Shown: piece by piece, positions 1,907 through 15,114 of the stretch | Numbering within the stretch: position 1 is the first letter of the stretch | Layout: every line of letters begins with the position of its first letter | Source: a virus | Strand: one strand, 5' to 3' | Length of the DNA stretch: 26,290 nucleotides | IMG/VR virus record: IMGVR_UViG_3300020469_000225 | Location: 1 to 26,290 of that record | The notes under the pieces: model-generated | Told to the model about the DNA's origin: nothing | What the model saw: only the letters and a program-made list of their open reading frames with translations | The model's database searches: none | Translations under genes and position numbers: made by a program

Positions 1907-4900
1907 TTAACTTGTTTTATTACCTGAAGCTGCGGTCATTGGTGTAAAGTTCGCAGTATATCTAGCCATTTTTGTTATTCTTAACTCGTCTATGAAGCCA
2001 TTAAATCCTCTTGCATAAGAGGTAGAATCTCCTATTCTCCAATTAGCGGTTGAGAGGAATGTTTGATTCCAAGCATTTGTATTATCAGCACCACTTTTTT
2101 GACCATTTATGAATAACATATTAGTGCCGTTATGCCTAACAAATACAACATGACTCCATGTCCCGGTAGGAACTGCCCCACCTTGTCTTAACACACTAGA
2201 ATTTGAATATGCACCTGCCCACACTTGAAGAATACCGCTAGAAATATAAAAACTAAATGCCTCTGTGCTATAACCTGACCTGGTATCAATAATCGTTGCG
2301 ATAGCTGGTGAAGTCATTGGTTTTACAAAAGCTTCAACCGTAACATCACCAGAGCCAAATACTAAATTAGGAGACTGTAATGTTTGTAAGTAATCACCAG
2401 TCCCATCAAAACTTAAACTACCAGTACCAAATTTAGTATTTGCTGCACCCGTTGATATTTTGGCATCACCTGCAACAGAAAAAACAGTTTTCCCTGTTGA
2501 ATCGAAAATACCAGCATTTACAAAGTTTAGTAATGCTCTTGTATTTGCAGTATTACGAAATGGTGCAGTAGGTAAAGTTAAAGTGCTTTGAGTAGGATCA
2601 TATATGGCCTCATCTATGACCATTCTCCATGAAGATACATAACCCTTGTAATCAAAATCGTTTCCATTTCTAGCCCCAATGTGGGTACTCTGTGTTGGTG
2701 TCATTAAAGTGATTGCGTTTGTATAATTATCAACTCTAGTTCCGTTTAAGAAAGCTGCAAAGTTACTACCACTACGAGAGATAGCAACATGATTCCATTG
2801 ATTGATAAATCCATTTGACCCATACGTTGATGTGTCTTGTTTAGTCCAAGAACCTCCAGTAGATAAATTATATCTTATACCATTACCATAATGATAAACA
2901 CTAAGAGGTGAATACCCATCACCCTGTGAAAATAAATTTTTATTTGCATCTGAACTTGTTTCACCATAATACCAACATTCAAAAGTAAAATCTTGTCCTA
3001 AAAAGTTTGTAAAACCTCCTAAGGGTAAACTCAGACGATCATCAGTACCATCAAAGTATGCAGACCCACCATGATCATAGGGATCATAAGATGTTGTGAG
3101 GTCAAATGGGAAGAAAGGTTGAACTCTTGGTGTGCCATTCAAAGTAATTGTATGATTACCTGATTCATCAACAAATTGATTAGACTTACAAGTTAATAAT
3201 TTAACATCAGCCTCTGTGGCACTTTGTGATGTTGTTGTCGTAGGCGTAGTTGGCGGTGTAAATATGGTTGTACCAGTGGATGTTTCAGTTGTTACATAAC
3301 CTGTTGGTATTGAGTCTTTAACCCATCTTACATTTGATATGTGACCTAAAAAATGATTTCCACCGTTTCTATCTCCAATAGTTACAAAATCACGATCAAT
3401 AGCATTCGTTTTTTGATTATAGTTTTTCAAGACACCATTAAGAAATTGTCGTATATACCCACTACTATCTCTTGTAATTACGAGATGCGACCATGAGCCT
3501 AAAGGTAAATTAAAAGGAGTTCCGATTTGAGAACCTGCAAATCTTAAATCTATGTTACCACTTGCATCATGCGATATTTGAAAATTATCATCATTAGGGT
3601 TGGCATAAAAGAATATACCCCAAGAAGAATTTACAGATCTTGGGAACAACCAGAATTCGATAGAAAATTCTTGATTAGAACTTAAATCAAAATCTGATGC
3701 TGTTGTTACTTTTATACTATCGGCTGTAAAAGCATTACTCCAGTAACCTGATGGTGGATAGTGTGGTGTAAAACTACCTTGAGTAACTTGATTTTGAGCC
3801 ACAACTACTGCATTATTACTACTCTCATCTATGAATCCTATATTACGAACAGAACCAGGATATATTCCAGATAAAAGTGTTGTTTGTTGTGGTATTGTGT
3901 TTGCAAATGGGAAAACTGGTTTTGTTTCTATATTACCTGATTCTACAAATCTTATGAATGATCCTGAATTATCTACAGAATTTGAAGATTGGCAAGTAAG
4001 AAGTTTTACTTCTGATGCAGTAGCACCTTGAGATGTCGTTGTAAATGGAGATGTACTTGGTGTAAATGTAGTGGTGTACAAGGCTGAACCTACCACAACA
4101 CGAAGATTTGAAATAAACCCATTAAAGTTTCTATTCGCACCTACCTGACCACCTATACCTACTTTTTGACCAAAACTGGTTAAATCTGTGCTGTTTGTGC
4201 CTGAAGATATAAGAGCTCCATTTACAAAAAGTTTAATACTATTTGAGTCGCCTGTATTTTTTACAAGTGCAACATGATGCCATTTATTTAATGCAAAGGT
4301 TGTGCCAGGGTTCAAATCAGTTTCCCAAGATGACCCATTGTATCTAATGAGAGCTCGTATTACACCAGCATTTGTTACTGTAATCCAAAGAGCATTTGAT
4401 GAAGAACTTGCACCAATAATAAGTAATGTATTACCTATGGCATCACCATTTTCACCATCACCTCTTTGATTAAACCAAAGTTCTGCTGTAAAACTAGATG
4501 TGTCTAAATCTATCACATCTTCAGGAGTTGTTAATTTATCAGCACTACCATCGAGAGATAAAGACCAGAGACCATTATCAAATGGGTTGTCTGCGGATCT
4601 TATTACATCACCAGTTTTTGTAAATCTTGTATCTAAATGTGAATTGTCTTTTTGCACTTCTTTATCTTGACAAGCCAGTAAAATTTGGTCTCTTGCGAGT
4701 TCAGTTGAGAACGGTCTTGAACGGGAAACTTTTGCATCATTAACTGGAGTTATAGCATACCCAAGACTAGAATTTGCAGTTGAATTGTCTATGATAGCAC
4801 CTGATTGGCAGGTGAGAAGTTTTACTTCTGATGCGGTTGCGCCTTGTGAAGTTGTAGTTAAAGGCGATGTTGGAACAGTATATGTGGCACTAGAAGGGTC

Positions 4901-7900
4901 ATATAATGCTGAACCTTTAACTATTCTAAGATTTGATATGGAACTAATCATGTCCCAACCACCACCGTGGTATCTACCAATATTCAAACCTGACAAACTG
5001 ACACTAGAACTGTGTGTGGCTGTGCCTACTCTATTTCCGTTAGAAAATAAAGAAAGTGTTGTACCCTCTCTAGCTAACGCTACATGATTCCATACATCCT
5101 TTACTAAAGAACCAGCGCCAGTACCAGATATAATATTAGCACCATTATAAAAATACAAATACCTAGGACCATTTCCTGTGTCGTAACCTAATTGAGTTGT
5201 TGTATTTTGTGGAGCTGATAAGAACATATGTCCGCCAAGTGCTTCTTTTGGCTGAACCCAAAATTCTACAGTAAAATCACCCGTGCCAAAATCATGATCT
5301 GAGGTGGTTGGGACTGTTAAATAATCATCACCATCAAAGTGTACACTCCAATACCCATTGTCATATGGGTTAAATGTACTGACACCAGGACCTGTTGTGT
5401 TTACTAATGTGCCAGTTGATGTTGTTCCGCTAAAACCACCACCTTGTATATTATTTGTTGCATTGTTTATGAATGTATCATTTTGACATCCAAGAAACTT
5501 GACCTCTGATGCTGTAGCACCTTGAGAAGTTGTTGTTAATGGCTCAGTTGGTGGTGTGAAATTTGATGTATATAATGCAGTACCAATTATGAATCTCAAA
5601 GAATGTATATTTCCTGCATACATACTAGAATAACTTGTTACTCTATAACCACCAACACAAAAATCATCTTCTGTTAAATTGAAAGCACTATCATTAGCAG
5701 TTTCATGGCTATGGTGAACTCCATTTATATAAACTTTTAAAGCACCACTTGCTCTTGTGGCTGCAACGTGATACCACACTTTTGTTTTTATTATGCCTGT
5801 AGCTGACTTCGCAAAAAATTGTGTTCCGCTGGCATTTCTTGTTTGTAGCTGGAGTTGGCCACTTGTATTAACATTTAAAATAAAATGAGGATATACAGTT
5901 GCAGCCACAAGTGTTGGTTGAGCTCTTTGTGATGCAATTATGCTAGATTGTGTGAAGTTGTCAATATAAATCCAAGCCTCTATTGTAAAATCATTCGTGC
6001 CTACAACAAAATCACTTTCACCTAATATACTGTAATATGGGTAAGTGCCGTTGTAAACGCCCCTATTAAAATCCCAACTATTACTATTTGCTGATAGTGT
6101 ACCAGTTGTTGAAACTGGGCTGTATGTAACTGCTGTGTTTGATGTGTATTTTGCAACACCGTTTAAGACATTTAAACCATGAATCCGACCTTGGAATTGT
6201 TGACCGCCAGATGGTTGATTTAAACTTATATTAATATCGCCATGTAAATAGTCAATCGTATCTGCATAAACATCACCTTCTTTCAGACCATCAAGATACA
6301 TTGTGGTACTGCCACCAGATCTAACAATAGCTAAATGATACCACTTATTAGCCATTAATGCTCTTGATGTTATCCGAGCTCCTGTATTTACATACCATAA
6401 AATTTTATTTGCACTATTTAAAATAATTGCTGGATATGCACCATTGGCAACTCTTCCATCATATAAAAGCATATCGGAGCCAGGTAAATTTATTGTATTA
6501 AACCACATTTCAATTGTAAAATCATTTGCCGTGCCAAAAAAAATATCACTCGTTGGTATTACATTTGTGTTTGCTAAATGGTCTGACCCATCAAAGAAGT
6601 TACTAAATTGATTCGTTGATATGGCACCCGTGTTTGCACTATTTGCTAATGCTGGTTGTGTAGAAGCTGGATTGAAAGATGCGTTTGATGTATATTTTGC
6701 ACGGCCTTTTTCTACACGAACAGCATGAAAATATCCTATCCAAGGTAAATTTGATGAACTACCACCATTGTTACCAATTACAAATTTTACGGGTGATACT
6801 ATAGTCGTTGTATCAGCCGCTGACCCTTGTAACTCGCCATTGATGAATAATCTTGATACCCCATCCTCTCTACAAAGTGCTAAATGAGTCCACTCACCTT
6901 TGAAAATTTTTCTTGTTGAAGATACAATACCACTACTATAGTATAAACTAAAAACTTCTGATGATGATACTTTATAAACATATGGCATTGCTAGATTGCC
7001 TGTTCCATTACGACCAAAAATAGTTCTTTGACCTGTATCAACTGATAAATCATAAACCCAAGCTTCAATTGTATAATCATCTAAACCATGAGTAAATTCT
7101 TTCTCAGTTTCATCAACTTTAACAAAACTGGTGCCATCCATATAAATTGCACCGGTGTTTGCAGTTTTGTAAGAAGCGTTTGAAGAAAACGGTGATACCG
7201 TAGAAACTTTTGGAATACCTGATAGGGTAACTAAATGTCTATAATTGATTACATCTCTAAATCTATTTTCTTGACAAGTAATTAATTTTGTTTGTCTTTG
7301 TAGATACTGAAATGGTATAAATTCATCTACTTTTGGTGCGTTGTGTATTGAGAAAGCTTTTGGTGAATTACTATTATCAACAAAACGATTATTCTGACAA
7401 GTTAATAACACAACCTCTGAAGCTGTTGCACCTTGACTTGTGGTTGTAAGTGGTCCTGTAGGCGCTGTAAAATTACTTGTGCCATAAAGAGCCGTGCCTT
7501 TTATAATTCTGAGATTTGAAATAAACGCTAGAGACTGAGAAGCACCTCCTCCTACATTTACACCTATCGTTGCTAAACCCGAGGCTGTTAAATTTTTATC
7601 ATAAGCTGGGTATGTGCTACTAACTGTGCCATCTCTACTAAAGTATAAGTAATTACCAGATCTTTGTACAGCGATATGATACCATTGATTTGTGCCAAGG
7701 TCTACATCAGATCCAGCTTCAAAGTTAGAACCAGTAAATGCTGCTAGTCTACCAGAGGAAGCAATCAATAACGGAGCTATGTGGTCATTATCAACATTAC
7801 TAGCATCACGCAAATCACAAAGAACTTGAATTCCAGATGCACTAGTAAGATAAATAAAACACTCTACTGTGAAATTACCTGTGCCAAATGCAAAGTCTGA

Positions 7901-9466
7901 GGATGTGCCTGTATAAATGCCGGCGTTAGTTGCAGTAAAGTCATTACTCCAATACCCATTACCAAATGGACTAATCTCTGATATGAAAGCATTACCCGAT
8001 CTTGAAATTGCTTGACTGTTATTTGAATAGTCTTGAAATGTTTTACCTTGAGCAGTAAGTAAGACCGTGTTTGCATCTGGTGAAAATGGTGCAGTAGGTA
8101 CTGTGATAGATGCCCCTGTGGCATACACAGCTCCTCTTTGTATTCTAAGATTAGAAATTTTATCTACACCTGCTGATGCACCGCTATTCCAATAACGGAG
8201 TGTTAAATCACCCTTTGCTGAGTGAAATTTCATAACAGTAGATGCGTAAGTTGAATTTGTTGCATCTCTTGAACCGTTTACAAATAAATCTAAAACACCG
8301 GCATCATTTCTCTGAAAGACCACATGATACCATTGACCTACAGCAAGGGTGGTCGTGCCTGTAATCCAATACACACCAGAATTTCCAGATGAAGCTGCCT
8401 GATAAAATTGAAATACATTGCTACTGCTGTTTCTTTGTATTACATTACCCCAACCCGTTTGACCTAATATTGTAGTACCAAGAGTATCATAATATACCCA
8501 AAACTCTATTGTAAATGGGCCGGTACCAAAATCATATAAACCAAAGTCTGTGCTGGGTAGTTGTAAATAATCACCACTTGCATCAGACGAAACTGATAAT
8601 TCACCGTGAGTCGTAGGATCTTCAAATGGTGCAGTTGGTTTAGTATAAGTTGCATCAGTATATAAAGCGCTACCTTTTACAATTTTAAGATTTGAAATAT
8701 TACCTTTAAATTCATATGATGTGTGGGTGTTGTCTGACCCAATTACCATTTCATTTGTTGGTTGAAAATCGTAAGAACTTGTACCAGTAGCAACTCTAGT
8801 ACCATTTTGATACAAGTTTGTTGTGCCACTTGATCTTGTAACAGCTATGTGATGCCATTGACTTTGTGCTAAAGCTGTAGAAGATGCCAAATGTTGTGCA
8901 TTGTTTATCCAGAAAGAAATTTTATCATTATTAGGTGAGTTTTGAAAAGCAATTGCCCACCCACCAGTCCAATTACTATCAGCTGCACATTTTGTAACTA
9001 TAGTATAACTTTGTTGAGTTGCTCCAAGTGGAAATACCCAACACTCAATTGTAAAATCTCCAGTTCCAAATTTAAAATCATCACTTGTAGGTATCTCAAG
9101 AGCATCAGTATCACCATCAAAAGAGTTACTAAATGCACCCACATTATAATAAAATGGATTAAAATCAGTACCATAAACATTTGAACCAAACAGACCTACT
9201 CTTTTGTCGGTTGGGCTATCATCAGCTATGGCCAAATATTGAGCTTCAATAGCTGGGTTATTTACATTATTTGCACCTGGGTTACCATCACCGTGTAGAA
9301 GTAAAACTGTGTTTGCATAATGTTCGTCTGTTCTTTCAGGAGGCCCCGATGGGCTTGGTGGACTCGGTGATGGTGATGGTCCTGGTGATGGTCCTCCTCC
9401 ACCACCACTACCGGAATTGGCGTTATTAGCTGCGCCTTGAAGTGCTGAGAGTGAAATTAAATCCAT
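1907..9466 (-). CDS. Giant LamG/concanavalin A-like repeat protein, putative tail-fibre adhesin
   Basis: This 2519-residue protein has a short N-terminus, a Gly/Ser/Pro hinge (about residues 15-45), then eleven LamG-like (Laminin_G_3, concanavalin A-fold) domains of about 140 residues. Domain signals are FGTGDFTIECW-type strands near residues 135, 320, 530, 800, 980, 1160, 1400, 1660, 1935, 2165 and 2380. Each is followed by W-x-H-[VIL]-A, an F-x-NG-x turn and an ISNLRI-V-KG-x-A-LY strand. Linkers after several domains carry a conserved Ser-Gln-Gly-Ala-Thr block ending LLTCQ. LamG folds often bind carbohydrate, so contact with host surface glycans is likely but inferred. The ATG at 9466 shares its A with the stop of the upstream fibre gene (TAATG), and the chaperone-like gene follows. 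Size and repeat number are unusual, and no enzymatic or membrane motif is visible. Confidence 0.85.
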   Translation of the reverse strand: MDLISLSALQGAANNANSGSGGGGGPSPGPSPSPSPPSPSGPPERTDEHYANTVLLLHGDGNPGANNVNNPAIEAQYLAIADDSPTDKRVGLFGSNVYGTDFNPFYYNVGAFSNSFDGDTDALEIPTSDDFKFGTGDFTIECWVFPLGATQQSYTIVTKCAADSNWTGGWAIAFQNSPNNDKISFWINNAQHLASSTALAQSQWHHIAVTRSSGTTNLYQNGTRVATGTSSYDFQPTNEMVIGSDNTHTSYEFKGNISNLKIVKGSALYTDATYTKPTAPFEDPTTHGELSVSSDASGDYLQLPSTDFGLYDFGTGPFTIEFWVYYDTLGTTILGQTGWGNVIQRNSSSNVFQFYQAASSGNSGVYWITGTTTLAVGQWYHVVFQRNDAGVLDLFVNGSRDATNSTYASTVMKFHSAKGDLTLRYWNSGASAGVDKISNLRIQRGAVYATGASITVPTAPFSPDANTVLLTAQGKTFQDYSNNSQAISRSGNAFISEISPFGNGYWSNDFTATNAGIYTGTSSDFAFGTGNFTVECFIYLTSASGIQVLCDLRDASNVDNDHIAPLLIASSGRLAAFTGSNFEAGSDVDLGTNQWYHIAVQRSGNYLYFSRDGTVSSTYPAYDKNLTASGLATIGVNVGGGASQSLAFISNLRIIKGTALYGTSNFTAPTGPLTTTSQGATASEVVLLTCQNNRFVDNSNSPKAFSIHNAPKVDEFIPFQYLQRQTKLITCQENRFRDVINYRHLVTLSGIPKVSTVSPFSSNASYKTANTGAIYMDGTSFVKVDETEKEFTHGLDDYTIEAWVYDLSVDTGQRTIFGRNGTGNLAMPYVYKVSSSEVFSLYYSSGIVSSTRKIFKGEWTHLALCREDGVSRLFINGELQGSAADTTTIVSPVKFVIGNNGGSSSNLPWIGYFHAVRVEKGRAKYTSNASFNPASTQPALANSANTGAISTNQFSNFFDGSDHLANTNVIPTSDIFFGTANDFTIEMWFNTINLPGSDMLLYDGRVANGAYPAIILNSANKILWYVNTGARITSRALMANKWYHLAIVRSGGSTTMYLDGLKEGDVYADTIDYLHGDINISLNQPSGGQQFQGRIHGLNVLNGVAKYTSNTAVTYSPVSTTGTLSANSNSWDFNRGVYNGTYPYYSILGESDFVVGTNDFTIEAWIYIDNFTQSSIIASQRAQPTLVAATVYPHFILNVNTSGQLQLQTRNASGTQFFAKSATGIIKTKVWYHVAATRASGALKVYINGVHHSHETANDSAFNLTEDDFCVGGYRVTSYSSMYAGNIHSLRFIIGTALYTSNFTPPTEPLTTTSQGATASEVKFLGCQNDTFINNATNNIQGGGFSGTTSTGTLVNTTGPGVSTFNPYDNGYWSVHFDGDDYLTVPTTSDHDFGTGDFTVEFWVQPKEALGGHMFLSAPQNTTTQLGYDTGNGPRYLYFYNGANIISGTGAGSLVKDVWNHVALAREGTTLSLFSNGNRVGTATHSSSVSLSGLNIGRYHGGGWDMISSISNLRIVKGSALYDPSSATYTVPTSPLTTTSQGATASEVKLLTCQSGAIIDNSTANSSLGYAITPVNDAKVSRSRPFSTELARDQILLACQDKEVQKDNSHLDTRFTKTGDVIRSADNPFDNGLWSLSLDGSADKLTTPEDVIDLDTSSFTAELWFNQRGDGENGDAIGNTLLIIGASSSSNALWITVTNAGVIRALIRYNGSSWETDLNPGTTFALNKWHHVALVKNTGDSNSIKLFVNGALISSGTNSTDLTSFGQKVGIGGQVGANRNFNGFISNLRVVVGSALYTTTFTPSTSPFTTTSQGATASEVKLLTCQSSNSVDNSGSFIRFVESGNIETKPVFPFANTIPQQTTLLSGIYPGSVRNIGFIDESSNNAVVVAQNQVTQGSFTPHYPPSGYWSNAFTADSIKVTTASDFDLSSNQEFSIEFWLFPRSVNSSWGIFFYANPNDDNFQISHDASGNIDLRFAGSQIGTPFNLPLGSWSHLVITRDSSGYIRQFLNGVLKNYNQKTNAIDRDFVTIGDRNGGNHFLGHISNVRWVKDSIPTGYVTTETSTGTTIFTPPTTPTTTTSQSATEADVKLLTCKSNQFVDESGNHTITLNGTPRVQPFFPFDLTTSYDPYDHGGSAYFDGTDDRLSLPLGGFTNFLGQDFTFECWYYGETSSDANKNLFSQGDGYSPLSVYHYGNGIRYNLSTGGSWTKQDTSTYGSNGFINQWNHVAISRSGSNFAAFLNGTRVDNYTNAITLMTPTQSTHIGARNGNDFDYKGYVSSWRMVIDEAIYDPTQSTLTLPTAPFRNTANTRALLNFVNAGIFDSTGKTVFSVAGDAKISTGAANTKFGTGSLSFDGTGDYLQTLQSPNLVFGSGDVTVEAFVKPMTSPAIATIIDTRSGYSTEAFSFYISSGILQVWAGAYSNSSVLRQGGAVPTGTWSHVVFVRHNGTNMLFINGQKSGADNTNAWNQTFLSTANWRIGDSTSYARGFNGFIDELRITKMARYTANFTPMTAASGNKTS
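1930..9080 (-). repeat. Eleven tandem LamG-like domain repeats inside the giant adhesin
   Basis: The period is about 205-270 codons. Repeats are recognised at protein level by [FY]-[GD]-T-x-[DN]-F-T-[IV]-E-x-W at the start and [IV]-S-N-L-R-[IV] near the end. The copies are clearly diverged from each other. Repeats 3, 6, 7, 8 and 9 are each followed by the conserved linker block, while repeats 4, 5, 10 and 11 have shorter or different tails. Confidence 0.8.
3185..7450 (-). repeat. Five copies of a conserved 19-residue inter-domain linker block
   Basis: The copies lie at 7394-7450, 5483-5539, 4805-4861, 3989-4045 and 3185-3241. The consensus is [LFT]-T-T-T-S-Q-G-A-T-A-S-E-V-K-L-L-T-C-Q. The first copy has VVLL, the second KFLGCQ, and the last is degenerate (SQSATEADV, ending CK). 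The protein block is nearly constant while many third codon positions differ. Each block is followed by a D-N-S or D-E-S segment and then a V-x-x-F-x-PF segment leading into the next LamG domain. Confidence 0.8.
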
Positions 9467-10149
9467 TATCTACTATCAAATATTGAAACGGCACCCCTCC
9501 AGGTTGTTCCACCATCATCAGTTATGAAAACTAATACATCTACTTTTTCTTCACCACGAGTTAAAGTTGGTGCTGTGCCTGATTGCCATTTAACAGCACC
9601 TGGCCAAGTTTGTGTATAAGCTGCACCAGTATTTCCACCACCACCTGTAAGTTCTAATGTGAAAGCTGTTGCTCTTGATGAGTCTGGTCCTCCTGCAAAA
9701 GTCCATGTGCAAGCGCCAGAAGTATTTGCGGAAAAATAAGTGCCTTGTTGTGTATTGATTGTAGCTGCACCTGCAACATTGCCTAACGCAATGTGTGTTG
9801 CATTGAATACAGCAACATTTATGATACCTGTATTCGTCTTTGTGATTGTAGAATTTACAAATATTGCTGTATTAACTGCTGAACTAAGTTTATCAAGCGT
9901 TATGGTAGACGTTGCTAATTTAGCACCAGTTATATTAGAGTCTGCTATGGCAGCTGTTTCTACTGAGCCAGCTGAGAATAAATTTGCAGAAAGTGTGCTA
10001 GGAACTATCTCATTAGCGTGAATTGAGTTAGCCCCAACTAATGTTGCTCCATTAGCAATATTGTTGGCAGCAACCGTAAATAGTCCAATATTATTACCAA
10101 AAATTGCTCTTTCAGCTATTACAGAGTTAGTTACTTTTGTGAGGGCCAT
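9466..10149 (-). CDS. Tail-fibre/linker protein with conserved C-terminal domain
   Basis: This is a 227-residue protein. Residues 1-105 are a run of short repeats such as NSIHANEIV, SNITGAKLATS and TITLDKLS, the 'xIT-xx-KLA' pattern typical of extended trimeric fibre shafts. Residues about 110-225 form a beta domain: NVAVFN, GTYFSAN, CTWTF, FTLELTGGGGN, YTQTWPGAVKW, VDVLVFITDDGGTTWRG. This domain is well over half identical to the C-terminus of the 309-residue protein at 12076-13005. The TAA stop shares its last A with the ATG of the giant LamG gene (TAATG), a strong hint that the two products are made in step and may join in one appendage. The start is ATG at 10149 with AAAGGTAAAAG upstream. 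The connector role is inferred. Confidence 0.8.
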   Translation of the reverse strand: MALTKVTNSVIAERAIFGNNIGLFTVAANNIANGATLVGANSIHANEIVPSTLSANLFSAGSVETAAIADSNITGAKLATSTITLDKLSSAVNTAIFVNSTITKTNTGIINVAVFNATHIALGNVAGAATINTQQGTYFSANTSGACTWTFAGGPDSSRATAFTLELTGGGGNTGAAYTQTWPGAVKWQSGTAPTLTRGEEKVDVLVFITDDGGTTWRGAVSIFDSR

Positions 10150-11104: not shown

Positions 11105-12076
11105 TTAAGCTAACCTTATTATTATGGCACCCTGACCTTCAGCTTGGCCAGCAGTGTCAGGATACGGACTATATCCACCAAAATTAGGTGAGTCTCCTGC
11201 AAAAGTTTCACCTTGACCATTTTCTGGGTTTCTGATAGTGGGGTGAGTAAAACCGTTACCACCTCCGCCACCGGCACCACCGGAATCTCCGCCGCCACCT
11301 CCGCCTCCAGCATAACCGCCTCCGCCCGTGCCCGAACCATTATCACCAGGAACTGTGTTACCATGACCACCTCTTGCATAACCAGATTCACCCCCTTGAC
11401 CGTTGCCGGTTGGTTGTGTGCCTGGTGATCCATCTGCTCCTTGTCCTCTGGGGGCGGGACCACCTGATCCACCATTTCTTCGGGGGCCTGTTCCTGCGAC
11501 TCCACCGCTTCCCCCACTCGCACCACCACCGAACATGGGGTTTACTCTTAATGCGTTTGGTGTTCTGCCACCAGCGAGACCCTCTGGCCCACCGCTACCA
11601 TGACCGCCAAGAAAAAATCCACCACCACCTCCACCCGCAACTAATAATTCTTGACCGCCGGGTGCAGGTGCAAGAGTGAAAGCAGATGCACCACCGCCAC
11701 CAGGACTAGGATTTCCGGCAACTGAAGTTTCACCACCTCCACCAACATGACAAACATAAGTTACATTTTCAGTAAGTGTATATTCTCCCCTATTATTACC
11801 ACCTCTACCACCACCTTTGAATCCAGATCCTGGAAAGCCTCCATCAAAGCCTGGGCCGCCACCACAACCACCGTATACTGTTACCTGTACATCAACATCT
11901 GCTTCAACTGTAAATGTTTTTGTAATTGAAGATCTAGTATTACCATCATGTAAAATAAAATCTCCATCAGCAACTAAGTCATGCTCAGGTCCGTTTGGTG
12001 GTGCGGGTGATATATTTCTTAATACAGTATCTTTACTCTGGCCAGAGCCTGCCGCTAAAACTAATTTATCTACCAT
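11105..12076 (-). CDS. Glycine-rich adhesin-like protein
   Basis: This is a 323-residue protein. Residues 1-65 contain a conventional beta segment (LVADGDFILHDGN, then TKTFTVEADVDVQVTVYGG). Residues 70 to about 300 are extremely rich in glycine with runs of up to seven, broken by Ser, Asn, Pro and hydrophobic strands such as GGQELLVAGGGGGGFFLGG. The C-terminus ends GQGAIIIRLA. This is the architecture of the glycine-rich domain proteins of phage tails and bacterial surfaces, resembling in composition the polyglycine receptor-binding region of T-even gp38-type adhesins; that comparison is compositional, not homology shown here. The ATG at 12076 overlaps the stop of the upstream fibre gene (TAATG). 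GC content rises locally because glycine is encoded by GGN codons; this is compositional, not evidence of transfer. Confidence 0.8.
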   Translation of the reverse strand: MVDKLVLAAGSGQSKDTVLRNISPAPPNGPEHDLVADGDFILHDGNTRSSITKTFTVEADVDVQVTVYGGCGGGPGFDGGFPGSGFKGGGRGGNNRGEYTLTENVTYVCHVGGGGETSVAGNPSPGGGGASAFTLAPAPGGQELLVAGGGGGGFFLGGHGSGGPEGLAGGRTPNALRVNPMFGGGASGGSGGVAGTGPRRNGGSGGPAPRGQGADGSPGTQPTGNGQGGESGYARGGHGNTVPGDNGSGTGGGGYAGGGGGGGDSGGAGGGGGNGFTHPTIRNPENGQGETFAGDSPNFGGYSPYPDTAGQAEGQGAIIIRLA

Positions 12077-13005
12077 TAACTAGCCACTCCTAATCCTCCA
12101 CTATTTGCAACTGAAAATATACCTCTATAATTTGTGCCAGCATCATCTGTGAGAAAAACTAAAACATCTACACCATTTTCTCCTTTTGTAAGTTCTGGTG
12201 CTACATTAGCAGACCATCTAACTGAACTTGGCCAAGTTGTAGTGTAAGAATCTCTTGTATTACCACCACCAGATGTAAGTTCTAAAATAAATCCAGTTGC
12301 CTTATCACTAGAAGGTGGTCTTGTAAAGGACCATGTACAGTTATCAGTTTGATTTGCTGAAAAATATGTGCCCTGTGCTAAATTAATTGTAGCACTTGTT
12401 CCGACTTCACCTAATGTTATATGTTCTGAATTGAACACAGCTACATTTGTAACTTCTGTATTTGATGTGGTAACAGTTAAGTTTGATATTGATAATGTGC
12501 CAAATACCTCATTTCCTAATTTTGATGCTGTTATTGCTCCATCAACTATAATATTTGATGTAACAGAGTCATTTTGTAATTCATTACCTGATATGGTATT
12601 TGCACCTAAATTTTCAGCAGCCGCACCTGTCGCTAGTTTTATTCCTGTTACTTCTCCATCAATTATAGAATCTCTACTTACACATTGAGTAGCGAGTTTT
12701 CTAGCAGTTATACTCTTATCATCAACACCGATACTAGCAAATTTTTGTTGATCTCTTACGACAATTAATATATTATTGGTGCCAGTTTGAGGTGCCTCTG
12801 CAAAGTTAATACTTGCATTTGCTTGTGTTACTGTGTAAGATATAAAAGGATCTTGATGAACATTGTTTACATACACATCCAAATCCTTTGGGTCGGTCAC
12901 CGTTGATGTAGGTAAAACAAAGCTAATTGCTGTGTCATTACCACTATATCTTACAGAAAATCTCCTAGAAAGTTCTGTTTCGGGTGTGAAGCCAATATAT
13001 GACAT
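12076..13005 (-). CDS. Tail-fibre/linker protein, two-domain
   Basis: This 309-residue protein combines three parts. Residues 15-88 are a fibre attachment-type beta domain (FSVRYSGNDTAISFVLP, LDVYVNNVHQ, INFAEAP, NNILIVV) like the N-terminus of the protein at 873-1400. Residues 90-185 are shaft repeats (DDKSITARKLAT, GEVTGIKLATG, GAITASKLG). Residues 190-300 form a C-terminal beta domain (NVAVFN, GTYFSAN, CTWSF, VDVLVFLTDDAGTNYRG) strongly similar to that of the protein at 9466-10149. It is therefore the full-length version of parts found separately elsewhere in the window. Both ends overlap neighbours by one base (TAATG), with the 107-residue protein upstream and the glycine-rich protein downstream. 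A role as the fibre base that carries the glycine-rich protein is inferred. Confidence 0.8.
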   Translation of the reverse strand: MSYIGFTPETELSRRFSVRYSGNDTAISFVLPTSTVTDPKDLDVYVNNVHQDPFISYTVTQANASINFAEAPQTGTNNILIVVRDQQKFASIGVDDKSITARKLATQCVSRDSIIDGEVTGIKLATGAAAENLGANTISGNELQNDSVTSNIIVDGAITASKLGNEVFGTLSISNLTVTTSNTEVTNVAVFNSEHITLGEVGTSATINLAQGTYFSANQTDNCTWSFTRPPSSDKATGFILELTSGGGNTRDSYTTTWPSSVRWSANVAPELTKGENGVDVLVFLTDDAGTNYRGIFSVANSGGLGVAS

Positions 13006-13328
13006 TAGGTAATCTCCAAGACTGATAGTATGACATCACAATTACCAGAAGTAGAAGTCGTTAATGAATCTCCTGTCTCTAGCACAAGTTTTTGAGTTCC
13101 TCCAACGGGCACTAAAGCACCACCGACTGGCACACTTGCATTTTTTACAATTGAAAAAGTATTACTATCACCAGCAGACACAATTGCTACGTTAGCTGTT
13201 TGTGCGGTTTCTGTTACATTTGCAATTGTCATACCGATAAGTGTGCTTGTCGTACCAGCACCAACTGTATATATAACTTGATTTGCTGATACATTAGCTT
13301 GTGGGAAGTTTCTGAAGGTATTAGCCAT
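13005..13328 (-). CDS. Small beta-rich virion protein, uncharacterised
   Basis: This is a 107-residue protein of alternating strands: QVIYTVGAGTTSTLIGMTIAN, TANVAIV, NTFSIVKNASVPVGGALVPVGG, QKLVLETGDSLTT and a final CDVILSVLEIT strand. The layout resembles the 110-residue protein at 527-859, and both lie beside fibre genes, although similarity is limited to the strand pattern and the YTV and SVP/TVP motifs. There is no signal peptide or membrane segment. It opens cassette A: two tandem NATAAATA elements precede it, and the ATG at 13328 has AAGGAAA about ten bases upstream. Its stop overlaps the start of the two-domain fibre gene (TAATG). Function is unknown; a small structural or capping protein is the most economical guess. 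Confidence 0.75.
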   Translation of the reverse strand: MANTFRNFPQANVSANQVIYTVGAGTTSTLIGMTIANVTETAQTANVAIVSAGDSNTFSIVKNASVPVGGALVPVGGTQKLVLETGDSLTTSTSGNCDVILSVLEIT

Positions 13329-13350: not shown

Positions 13351-13366
13351 TATTTATCTATTTATC
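13351..13366 (-). promoter_or_regulatory. Tandem T4-type late promoter-like elements (two GATAAATA)
   Basis: Two adjacent copies of GATAAATA are read on the minus strand at 13366-13359 and 13358-13351. The TAA stop of the upstream gene (13362-13364) is inside the first copy. The nearest copy ends 22 bases upstream of the ATG at 13328. Both copies fit NATAAATA. The duplication may give two start sites or simply reflect low complexity. Confidence 0.5.
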
Positions 13367-14114
13367 CTAAAGCAATCGAGAGTGCTAAAGCTTCAGATAT
13401 AACTGTATTTGCTCTTTCCATAGCACCTGTAGAAGTGTGTTCTATTACTAAATTACCAACCATGTTACTCGCATGAGATGTGCATTGGTAGTAAAAATTT
13501 TCGCCAGCTGTATTTGCAGGCACCTTCCAGTACAATATCCCTTTATTTTGACCCTGTGCATCATAACCAGTTCTTACTAATAAACGTGAACTACCAGCAA
13601 TACCAGAAGTTCCCTCTGTTTGAACGTGAGTAAGACCCACATTGTAGTATGTACCACCATCACCCACATTTGCTGAAGCATTTGTTGTTCTAATTACAAA
13701 GGGATGAACACCATTTAATTTTTGTAAGTCAAAAGCAAATGTTTGACCAGGTCTCAAATTTACATCAGGATTAAGTGTATCATGCGTGTCAAAAATGTAA
13801 GCTGCGGTTCCACTATGATCAACTACAAATCTTGTTGTAGCCACACCTGCTGTATTTGCAACATTAAAAAATGGTGCGGTTCCTGATTCACTTAGAATTA
13901 AGTTACCGGCCACGGATAAATTGTCAAACCCAGCAACATCTAAATTTACATTACCTGTAACAGTTAAATCACCATTGATTCTAACATTACTTGTCGCTTC
14001 AAAAACACCGCCAACACCCTCTACGAATTGATTGTTCATATCGATCAATTCTGTAGTTGTGCTTAACCACTCTTGAAATGTATTTGAAGTTGTAAGTTGG
14101 TTAATTATTGCCAT
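13362..14114 (-). CDS. Virion-type protein with cupredoxin-like C-terminal domain (copy 2)
   Basis: This 250-residue protein is a paralogue of its upstream neighbour. Residues 1-20 (INQL...NTFQEWLSTT) form a helical start. Residues 45-80 carry strand repeats (INGDLTVTGNVNL, LSVAGNLILSE). Residues 100-225 resemble a cupredoxin: AAYIFD, NLRPGQTFAFDL, GVHPFVIRT, GTYYNVGLTHV, GILYWKVP and YYQCTSHASNMVG. His137, Cys211, His214 and Met218 match the His...Cys-x2-His-xn-Met ligand order of type I copper sites, with C-x2-H-x3-M spacing. There is no signal peptide, so it is not an exported electron carrier; location among baseplate and fibre genes implies a virion protein. Metal binding is unproven. 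The start is ATG at 14114, with AGGAAAAAG overlapping the preceding TAG stop. Confidence 0.75.
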   Translation of the reverse strand: MAIINQLTTSNTFQEWLSTTTELIDMNNQFVEGVGGVFEATSNVRINGDLTVTGNVNLDVAGFDNLSVAGNLILSESGTAPFFNVANTAGVATTRFVVDHSGTAAYIFDTHDTLNPDVNLRPGQTFAFDLQKLNGVHPFVIRTTNASANVGDGGTYYNVGLTHVQTEGTSGIAGSSRLLVRTGYDAQGQNKGILYWKVPANTAGENFYYQCTSHASNMVGNLVIEHTSTGAMERANTVISEALALSIALG

Positions 14115-14122
14115 TCTTTTTC

Positions 14123-14899
14123 CTAGTGTCCTGTAAGTCCTATAGCAAAGGCTAACGCATCATCTGAAGCACTATTAGCTTTATCAAATGCGACTCTTTC
14201 GCTATTCCCAATATATATTGGGCCTACCATAGCACCAGCGTGAGCGGTACATTGATAGTAAAGTGTATCCCCTATTATTGTTTGTGGTACTTTCCAATAC
14301 AAAATACCTGTATTTTTTCCTTGTGCATCAAAGCCTGTTGATGTTTTAAGACTACCACCAGCAGACTCTACTTCAACATGAGTTAATCCCACATTGTAAT
14401 ATGTACCACCATCATTTACGGTGGCAGAGGTGTTACTCGTTCTAATTACAAATGGGTGAGCACCATATAATTGTTGTAAATCGAAAGCATATGTATAACC
14501 AGGTTCTAAGTATAACGCTGGGTTATTACCTTGATCTATGTCAAAAATATAAGCTGCTCCATTACCTTGTATAGAATACCTAGATGCAGCTGCTTGAGAT
14601 GTGTTTGCTGTTTCGTAATAAACACCTGAATCACCTGTATCTGTTTGCGTTACAATTAAATTACCAGGTATCGTTAAATTATCAAAGTCTGTATTTCTAT
14701 TTAACTTTAAGTTACCTGTTACTTCTAAATTACCATCAATTGTTAAGTCATTAAAAACATCAAAAGGTGAGCTACCACTATGCACACTAACCATGTTTGC
14801 ATTATCAGTAAAATTATTAGCAAATGTAATTAAATCTGATGAAACATTTAACCAATCATGCCATGTGTTTGCTAAGTTTAAGTGATTGATAATTGGCAT
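14123..14899 (-). CDS. Virion-type protein with cupredoxin-like C-terminal domain (copy 1)
   Basis: This 258-residue protein is the first of a tandem pair. Residues 1-20 (INHLNLANTWHDWLNVSS) parallel the start of copy 2. Residues 50-85 hold DLTIDGNLEVTGNLKL and LTIPGNLIVTQ strands. Residues 118-230 are the cupredoxin-like part: AAYIFDID, LYLEPGYTYAFDL, GAHPFVIRT, GTYYNVGLTHV, GILYWKVP and LYYQCTAHAGAMVGPI. His148, Cys217, His220 and Met224 reproduce the type I copper ligand order. The surrounding framework is close to copy 2 while the N-terminal and loop regions differ, so the duplication is not recent. The start is ATG at 14899, two bases after the upstream stop, so translation is probably coupled. 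A baseplate- or fibre-associated role is inferred from position. Confidence 0.75.
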   Translation of the reverse strand: MPIINHLNLANTWHDWLNVSSDLITFANNFTDNANMVSVHSGSSPFDVFNDLTIDGNLEVTGNLKLNRNTDFDNLTIPGNLIVTQTDTGDSGVYYETANTSQAAASRYSIQGNGAAYIFDIDQGNNPALYLEPGYTYAFDLQQLYGAHPFVIRTSNTSATVNDGGTYYNVGLTHVEVESAGGSLKTSTGFDAQGKNTGILYWKVPQTIIGDTLYYQCTAHAGAMVGPIYIGNSERVAFDKANSASDDALAFAIGLTGH

Positions 14900-14901
14900 A
14901 A

Positions 14902-15114
14902 TTAATTCTTCATCACGATTTGTTTCAAGAGTTCTTTAATTTCTTGAAACTCATTTTTGATAGTGTTCACCTCTTCTTTTAAACTGTTTAGCGTTACATT
15001 CACCTCTTTTTCTTTACGTCTTTTCAATAAAGCGGCCATATCAGTATTCAATATAGCTTTTGATCCTGAATCCCGAACAAGATGACTATGGTCTTTTACT
15101 TTTAAGTAACTCAC
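14902..15114 (-). CDS. Small coiled-coil protein
   Basis: This is a 70-residue protein. Residues 1-32 read SYLKVKDHSHLVRDSGSKAILNTD, a pattern (V-RD-x-x-S-x-A-I-x-NTD) I associate with small conserved proteins of T4-like marine phages. Residues 33-68 are strongly charged and heptad-like (VNVTLNSLKEEVNTIKNEF, EIKELLKQI), predicting a coiled coil. The start is GTG at 15114: GTGA overlaps the TGA stop of the upstream DUF4815 gene by four bases, which decides this start and indicates translational coupling. It may oligomerise on or help assemble the baseplate periphery, but no function can be assigned. Confidence 0.7.
   Translation of the reverse strand: MSYLKVKDHSHLVRDSGSKAILNTDMAALLKRRKEKEVNVTLNSLKEEVNTIKNEFQEIKELLKQIVMKN

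Follow-up and report, generated by a model that had tools for sequence, protein, structure and literature searches.

A cupredoxin-like domain with a conserved, putative type 1 copper ligand set in paired tail-type proteins of a T4-like virus

Two adjacent genes in a 26,290-nucleotide virus fragment (IMG/VR record IMGVR_UViG_3300020469_000225, positions 1 to 26,290, hereafter the window) encode proteins that each hold a His-Cys-His-Met set reminiscent of type 1 copper proteins, in a genomic setting where a structural component of the phage particle would be expected. The locus thus raises the question of whether a phage tail protein carries a metal site that is under selection, or only the fold in which such sites commonly reside.

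Both genes are located on the minus strand, as open reading frames of 258 residues (paralogue A, 14123-14899) and 250 residues (paralogue B, 13362-14114). An earlier note on this DNA had described them as tandem paralogues, and the two products indeed align over their full length with approximately 46% identity. Despite this divergence, both window copies retain all four candidate ligands, identical between copies and at exactly the positions given in that note: H148, C217, H220 and M224 in paralogue A, and H137, C211, H214 and M218 in paralogue B. PHROG matches reveal the window to be a T4-like baseplate/tail-fibre region, with baseplate wedge proteins upstream, followed by a 1822-aa phrog_358 structural-type protein, phrog_473, the paralogues, phrog_1276, and finally tail-fibre and tail-fibre-assembly genes. 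The syntenic neighbours, likewise on the minus strand, are a 70-aa phrog_473 virion structural protein upstream (14902-15114) and, downstream, a 107-aa phrog_1276 protein (13005-13328) and a 309-aa tail-fibre protein matching phrog_9017 as well as other tail-fibre families (12076-13005). The C-terminal part of phrog_677 is matched by both window proteins, with E-values of 5.5e-18 and 1.3e-23. Synteny and membership of PHROG structural families suggest that the two are structural tail or baseplate proteins, in agreement with the virion-type label they had been given. Three relatives (L097, L098 and L106) have the same gene order with a single copy, which indicates that the window paralogues arose by duplication. 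A search of viral contigs with one of the window proteins as query returned a single contig, which shares 15 kb with the window at 100% identity. Repetition is also seen elsewhere in the window: the C-terminal domain of the 12076-13005 tail-fibre protein recurs at 9466-10149 with approximately 47% identity, and a 2519-aa protein (1907-9466), in which baseplate wedge and virion structural families are matched about 10 times over, is probably an extended fibre or adhesin built of repeats.

The two paralogues are built alike: a cupredoxin domain is inserted between an anchor at the N-terminus and a helix at the C-terminus. In paralogue A, the anchor spans residues ~1-90 (14630-14899, minus strand) and is common to short homologues without a cupredoxin. 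It is followed by the predicted cupredoxin domain at residues ~104-231 (14207-14590, minus strand), delimited from the AlphaFold model and its Foldseek PDB matches, and by a helix at residues 233-256 (14132-14203, minus strand), assigned by DSSP of the model and present in the short homologues too. The predicted cupredoxin domain of paralogue B, placed by an AlphaFold model of residues 90-228 and PDB matches, covers residues ~93-226 (13437-13838, minus strand). A search with the N-terminal 90 residues alone yielded 21 loci, the window's own sequence included. Six of these, the window among them, contain the cupredoxin, and all six keep the four ligands. The other 15 loci, mostly encoding 71-135 aa, combine the same N-terminal anchor with a similar helix at the C-terminus (ALAFAIALG or a near variant) and are without the cupredoxin, which indicates that the domain is an optional insert between anchor and helix. 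Among the short homologues, those of L176-L178, L185-L192, L194 and L195 (71-135 aa) consist almost entirely of anchor and C-terminal helix, and have the appearance of a bare mounting module.

AlphaFold modelling of the whole 258-residue paralogue A gave a low-confidence N-terminus and a domain with pLDDT mostly at 90-95, with local dips to 75-79; the model of paralogue B residues 90-228 reached a mean pLDDT of 92.4 and a pTM of 0.86. When compared with the PDB using Foldseek, the paralogue A model matched rusticyanin, AcoP, azurin, amicyanin and laccases, with plastocyanin and nitrite reductase also found among the matches, while each of the best 50 listed for the paralogue B domain is a cupredoxin or a multicopper oxidase (probability 0.99-1.0). 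Superposition on the PDB cupredoxins is modest overall (TM-score ~0.4-0.55, rmsd 5-11 Å), probably in part owing to long loops. In both models, the penultimate strand terminates at the Cys, and the loop leading into the last strand holds the second His and the Met, an arrangement that is cupredoxin-like. No relative of paralogue B was found by a single-sequence search of the PDB, indicating that profiles are needed: a profile built from 53 family domains (alignment A6) matched 86 PDB sequences at E <= 1 (best 3e-6), and the 60 listed of these 86 are all cupredoxin-type copper proteins. Predicted structure and profile similarity together support placing the window domains in the cupredoxin superfamily of Greek-key beta sandwiches, and so uphold the layout first read from the sequence.

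In paralogue A, the codon of H148 lies at 14456-14458 and the ligand loop C217-T-A-H220-A-G-A-M224 at 14228-14251; in paralogue B, the codon of H137 lies at 13704-13706 and the loop C211-T-S-H214-A-S-N-M218 at 13461-13484 (all on the minus strand). The four paralogue A residues are invariant in alignment A3; those of paralogue B correspond to H48 and to the invariant C122, H125 and M129 of alignment A6. C217 and C211 are the sole cysteines of their respective proteins. In profile alignments to plastocyanin (PDB code 1b3i) and rusticyanin (1a8z), the His, Cys, His and Met of the family fall on the four copper ligands, and the same is true when the family is aligned with the plastocyanin of cyanophage S-SSM5. 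Amicyanin, plastocyanin, rusticyanin, azurin and the type 1 domains of nitrite reductase hence share with the window domains the fold, the His-Cys-His-Met set in register and an aromatic residue two positions before the Cys. The amicyanin spacing of the ligand loop (C-x2-H-x2-M) is found in most family members, namely 193 of 202 distinct complete domains. The C-x2-H-x3-M spacing to which the earlier note drew attention is genuine but a minority form, seen in only 4/202: the two window copies and their close relatives from L097 and L098. Two further loci (L163:1454-1825 and L285:4936-7770) have C-x4-H-x2-M loops with a longer, azurin-like Cys-His spacing. In contrast to type 1 copper proteins, the window domains occur in a virion context and without a signal peptide, a long loop separates the first His from the Cys, and the metal site is putative. 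A further difference concerns the first ligand motif, which is HPF in the window copies, with Pro directly following the His. Small cupredoxins mostly place Asn or Ser there (HN/HS), so the site may be atypical; HPF resembles the HPxH motif of multicopper oxidases, in which the corresponding His serves as a type 1 ligand.

The domain was found in approximately 330 phage isolate records, nearly all of marine cyanophages, with the addition of two Pelagibacter phages; by way of comparison, the S-SSM5 tail sheath is matched at E <= 1e-60 by 471 records that carry Synechococcus, Cyanophage, Prochlorococcus or Marine in their names. In most marine T4-like cyanophages, it forms the C-terminus of gp9 (phrog_677, T4-GC 398), behind a PF07880 domain. 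This gp9 cupredoxin is homologous to that of the window proteins and has the same four ligands, but the mounting differs: PF07880 (T4_gp9_10_N) is present at the N-terminus of gp9 in S-SSM5 and L274 and is absent from the window proteins according to Pfam, the latter having another anchor, a C-terminal helix and a duplicated gene. Beyond gp9, giant fibres of >2000 aa contain the domain, as do a tail-region gene of a podovirus and a few bacterial proteins of secreted type. All four ligands are present in the secreted-type cellular proteins of L279, L284 and L285, which comprise a protein with FG-GAP repeats, one matching PF25489 and a Rhodobacteraceae protein. A plasmid search gave no match. 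In many cyanophages, the gene beside gp9 (T4-GC 399) carries a related domain; in L065, L221 and L225, this gene, located downstream of gp9, reads HPL...YYWCHYHTGQGN, a His-Cys-His-Gln set of stellacyanin-like character. The two window proteins have no Pfam match at E <= 1, and the best relatives reach only 0.017 with PF00127 (Copper-bind) and 0.052 with PF13473 (Cupredoxin_1), short of the cut-off. The At5g54830-like family PF25489 matches a secreted-type planctomycete member at 1.4e-12 and some phage members weakly, and does not reach the window proteins.

Is the ligand set maintained by selection? One of the search patterns included the Cys and the second His, making its loci unusable for measuring retention. 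To avoid this circularity, a ligand-blind set of gp9 proteins was gathered by N-terminal peptides only; all four ligands are retained in 79/79 complete proteins, one protein cut by a contig end having been left out. One of these 79 (L255) has HPL in place of HPF and still keeps all four ligands. Across all fetched loci, 199 of the 202 distinct complete domains have His/Cys/His/Met and the remaining 3 have His/Cys/His/Gln, in a family profile built on ligand-bearing members that under-samples ligand-less relatives. The 53-sequence alignment A3, containing a window protein and diverse relatives, has 7 invariant columns, of which 4 are the ligands. Among 26 representatives with <50% identity, drawn from input domains that already ended in the Met, 5 of the 95 well-occupied columns are invariant, and these are Tyr, His, Cys, His and Met, the Tyr standing two residues before the ligand Cys. 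The chance of the four named columns falling among the five invariant ones by random placement is approximately 1.6e-6. Both synonymous codons are used at the Cys and at both His residues in these representatives, which suggests selection as opposed to recent copying. In 197/202 domains, there is no Cys other than the ligand, and since this Cys is usually alone, its retention is not explained by an intradomain disulfide; this cause was excluded. The conservation among homologues on which the earlier note had staked its reading is hence borne out, and we consider the window domains most likely to be a selected, metal-binding module on the virion, probably with type 1 copper.

Alternative explanations can be arranged in roughly falling probability, from another metal, through a redox-active centre and a scaffold with leftover ligands, to a captured plastocyanin. 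The first, in which zinc or iron occupies the site or the Cys/His cluster is conserved for a copper-free use, is unlikely but the most serious of the four. Zinc and iron sites rarely use an axial Met, and Gln is found as axial ligand in copper proteins such as stellacyanin; a complete type 1 copper set that includes the axial Met, with Gln as the only axial variant seen, argues against this option. On the other hand, the sequence fixes the ligands and not the metal, and azurins described with Zn, Fe and Ni are among the listed PDB matches. Iron bound at HxH motifs is moreover already known or proposed in phage tails and fibres, including T4 gp37 and alterophage R22Y (PMC11705849). The common ground between these HxH sites and the window domains is the notion of a metal-carrying tail or fibre protein, but the HxH sites are octahedral and located in trimeric fibres, in contrast to the four-ligand site of a single cupredoxin domain.

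A copper centre could instead be redox-active on the particle, exchanging electrons with components of the host surface or setting off attachment or contraction by a change of redox state. Electron transfer is the normal function of type 1 sites, and the ligand set matches that of amicyanin and plastocyanin; however, the window proteins have no redox partner, second copper site or oxidase domain, and their context is structural, making such a role improbable.

It had also been suggested that the fold may be used only as a scaffold, in which case the ligands would be leftovers from a copper-binding ancestor. Ligand-less use of the fold does occur: of 23 distinct cases of the T4-GC 399 domain, 19 have lost the Cys and the second His, with 3 having His-Cys-His-Gln and 1 His-Cys-His-Met, and one of the two domains in L109 is without any of the four ligands. 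The persistence of these related domains shows that the cupredoxin fold does not require the ligands. Leftover ligands would be expected to drift, as they have in the T4-GC 399 domain, and the losses look concerted where they occur; a set kept elsewhere consequently argues for metal. In the ligand-blind proteins and the family overall, the set is kept while nearly all other columns vary. The scaffold reading is thus applicable to the domain beside gp9, but for the window copies we regard it as very doubtful.

Capture of a host plastocyanin (petE) for photosynthesis during infection can be dismissed, despite the fact that cyanophages do carry petE (PMC3037559) and that one phage protein with the domain is annotated PetE, as the window proteins have neither a Pfam Copper-bind match, even at E = 1, nor a signal peptide (N-termini read by eye), structural modules flank the domain on both sides, the synteny is structural, and S-SSM5 carries both gene types, petE and a gp9 with cupredoxin. 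The true S-SSM5 petE, by comparison, has a signal-peptide-like N-terminus and matches Copper-bind at 4e-20. The homology of cyanophage plastocyanin (T4-GC 225) to the window domain is distant, with the ligands in alignment, and it is a host-derived, secreted electron carrier as opposed to a structural module within other genes. In Synechococcus phage S-SCSM2R (PQ898602.1; L286:5800-6306), the "PetE" annotation belongs to a structural-type protein with the virion cupredoxin and not to a plastocyanin. We classify the window proteins as cupredoxins by predicted fold and ligands, distinct from gp9 (no PF07880) and from PetE, with copper as the putative metal.

Our preferred reading, which we hold to be reasonably likely, is that the window encodes a pair of tail or baseplate proteins from a marine T4-like phage, each with a cupredoxin that serves as a metal-stabilised (copper) module for adhesion or attachment, rather than as an enzyme. 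The domain would fold as an apoprotein inside the host cell and, once in the lysate or seawater, take up one copper ion coordinated by His, Cys, His and an axial Met. By bridging the C-terminal ligand loop and the His loop, the bound metal would stabilise an exposed domain, and the long, variable segment that connects the first His with the Cys may contact the host surface or a neighbouring subunit. Besides the possibly atypical first ligand motif and the modest superposition, two points count against this proposal. Cupredoxins mostly transfer electrons, and those in the window have no known partner; copper loading in copper-poor seawater is a step for which the proposal offers no account.

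A search limited to open-access papers found none on a cupredoxin in phage virions, so the occurrence is apparently unreported; the published proposal that comes closest is that of iron at the HxH motifs of tail fibres (PMC11705849). Textbooks present cupredoxins as carriers of electrons and as domains of oxidases; in this family, the fold recurs as a structural module in tail proteins of marine phages that are very abundant, and a domain with a complete putative metal site escapes Pfam. The family also corrects an annotation, as the structural protein labelled PetE in one phage record could be miscounted as a photosynthesis gene. Should metal be bound, these domains would represent a copper counterpart to the iron proposed in phage tails, linking infection to trace-metal chemistry. 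Virion proteomes exist for related cyanophages (PMC3037559). It is conceivable, although we would put it at somewhat below even, that the virions of a large fraction of marine T4-like phages are copper proteins, with several strongly selected type 1 sites per baseplate or tail and a role for these in attachment. If true, phage particles would constitute a marine pool of organically bound copper, and infection would be tied to copper.
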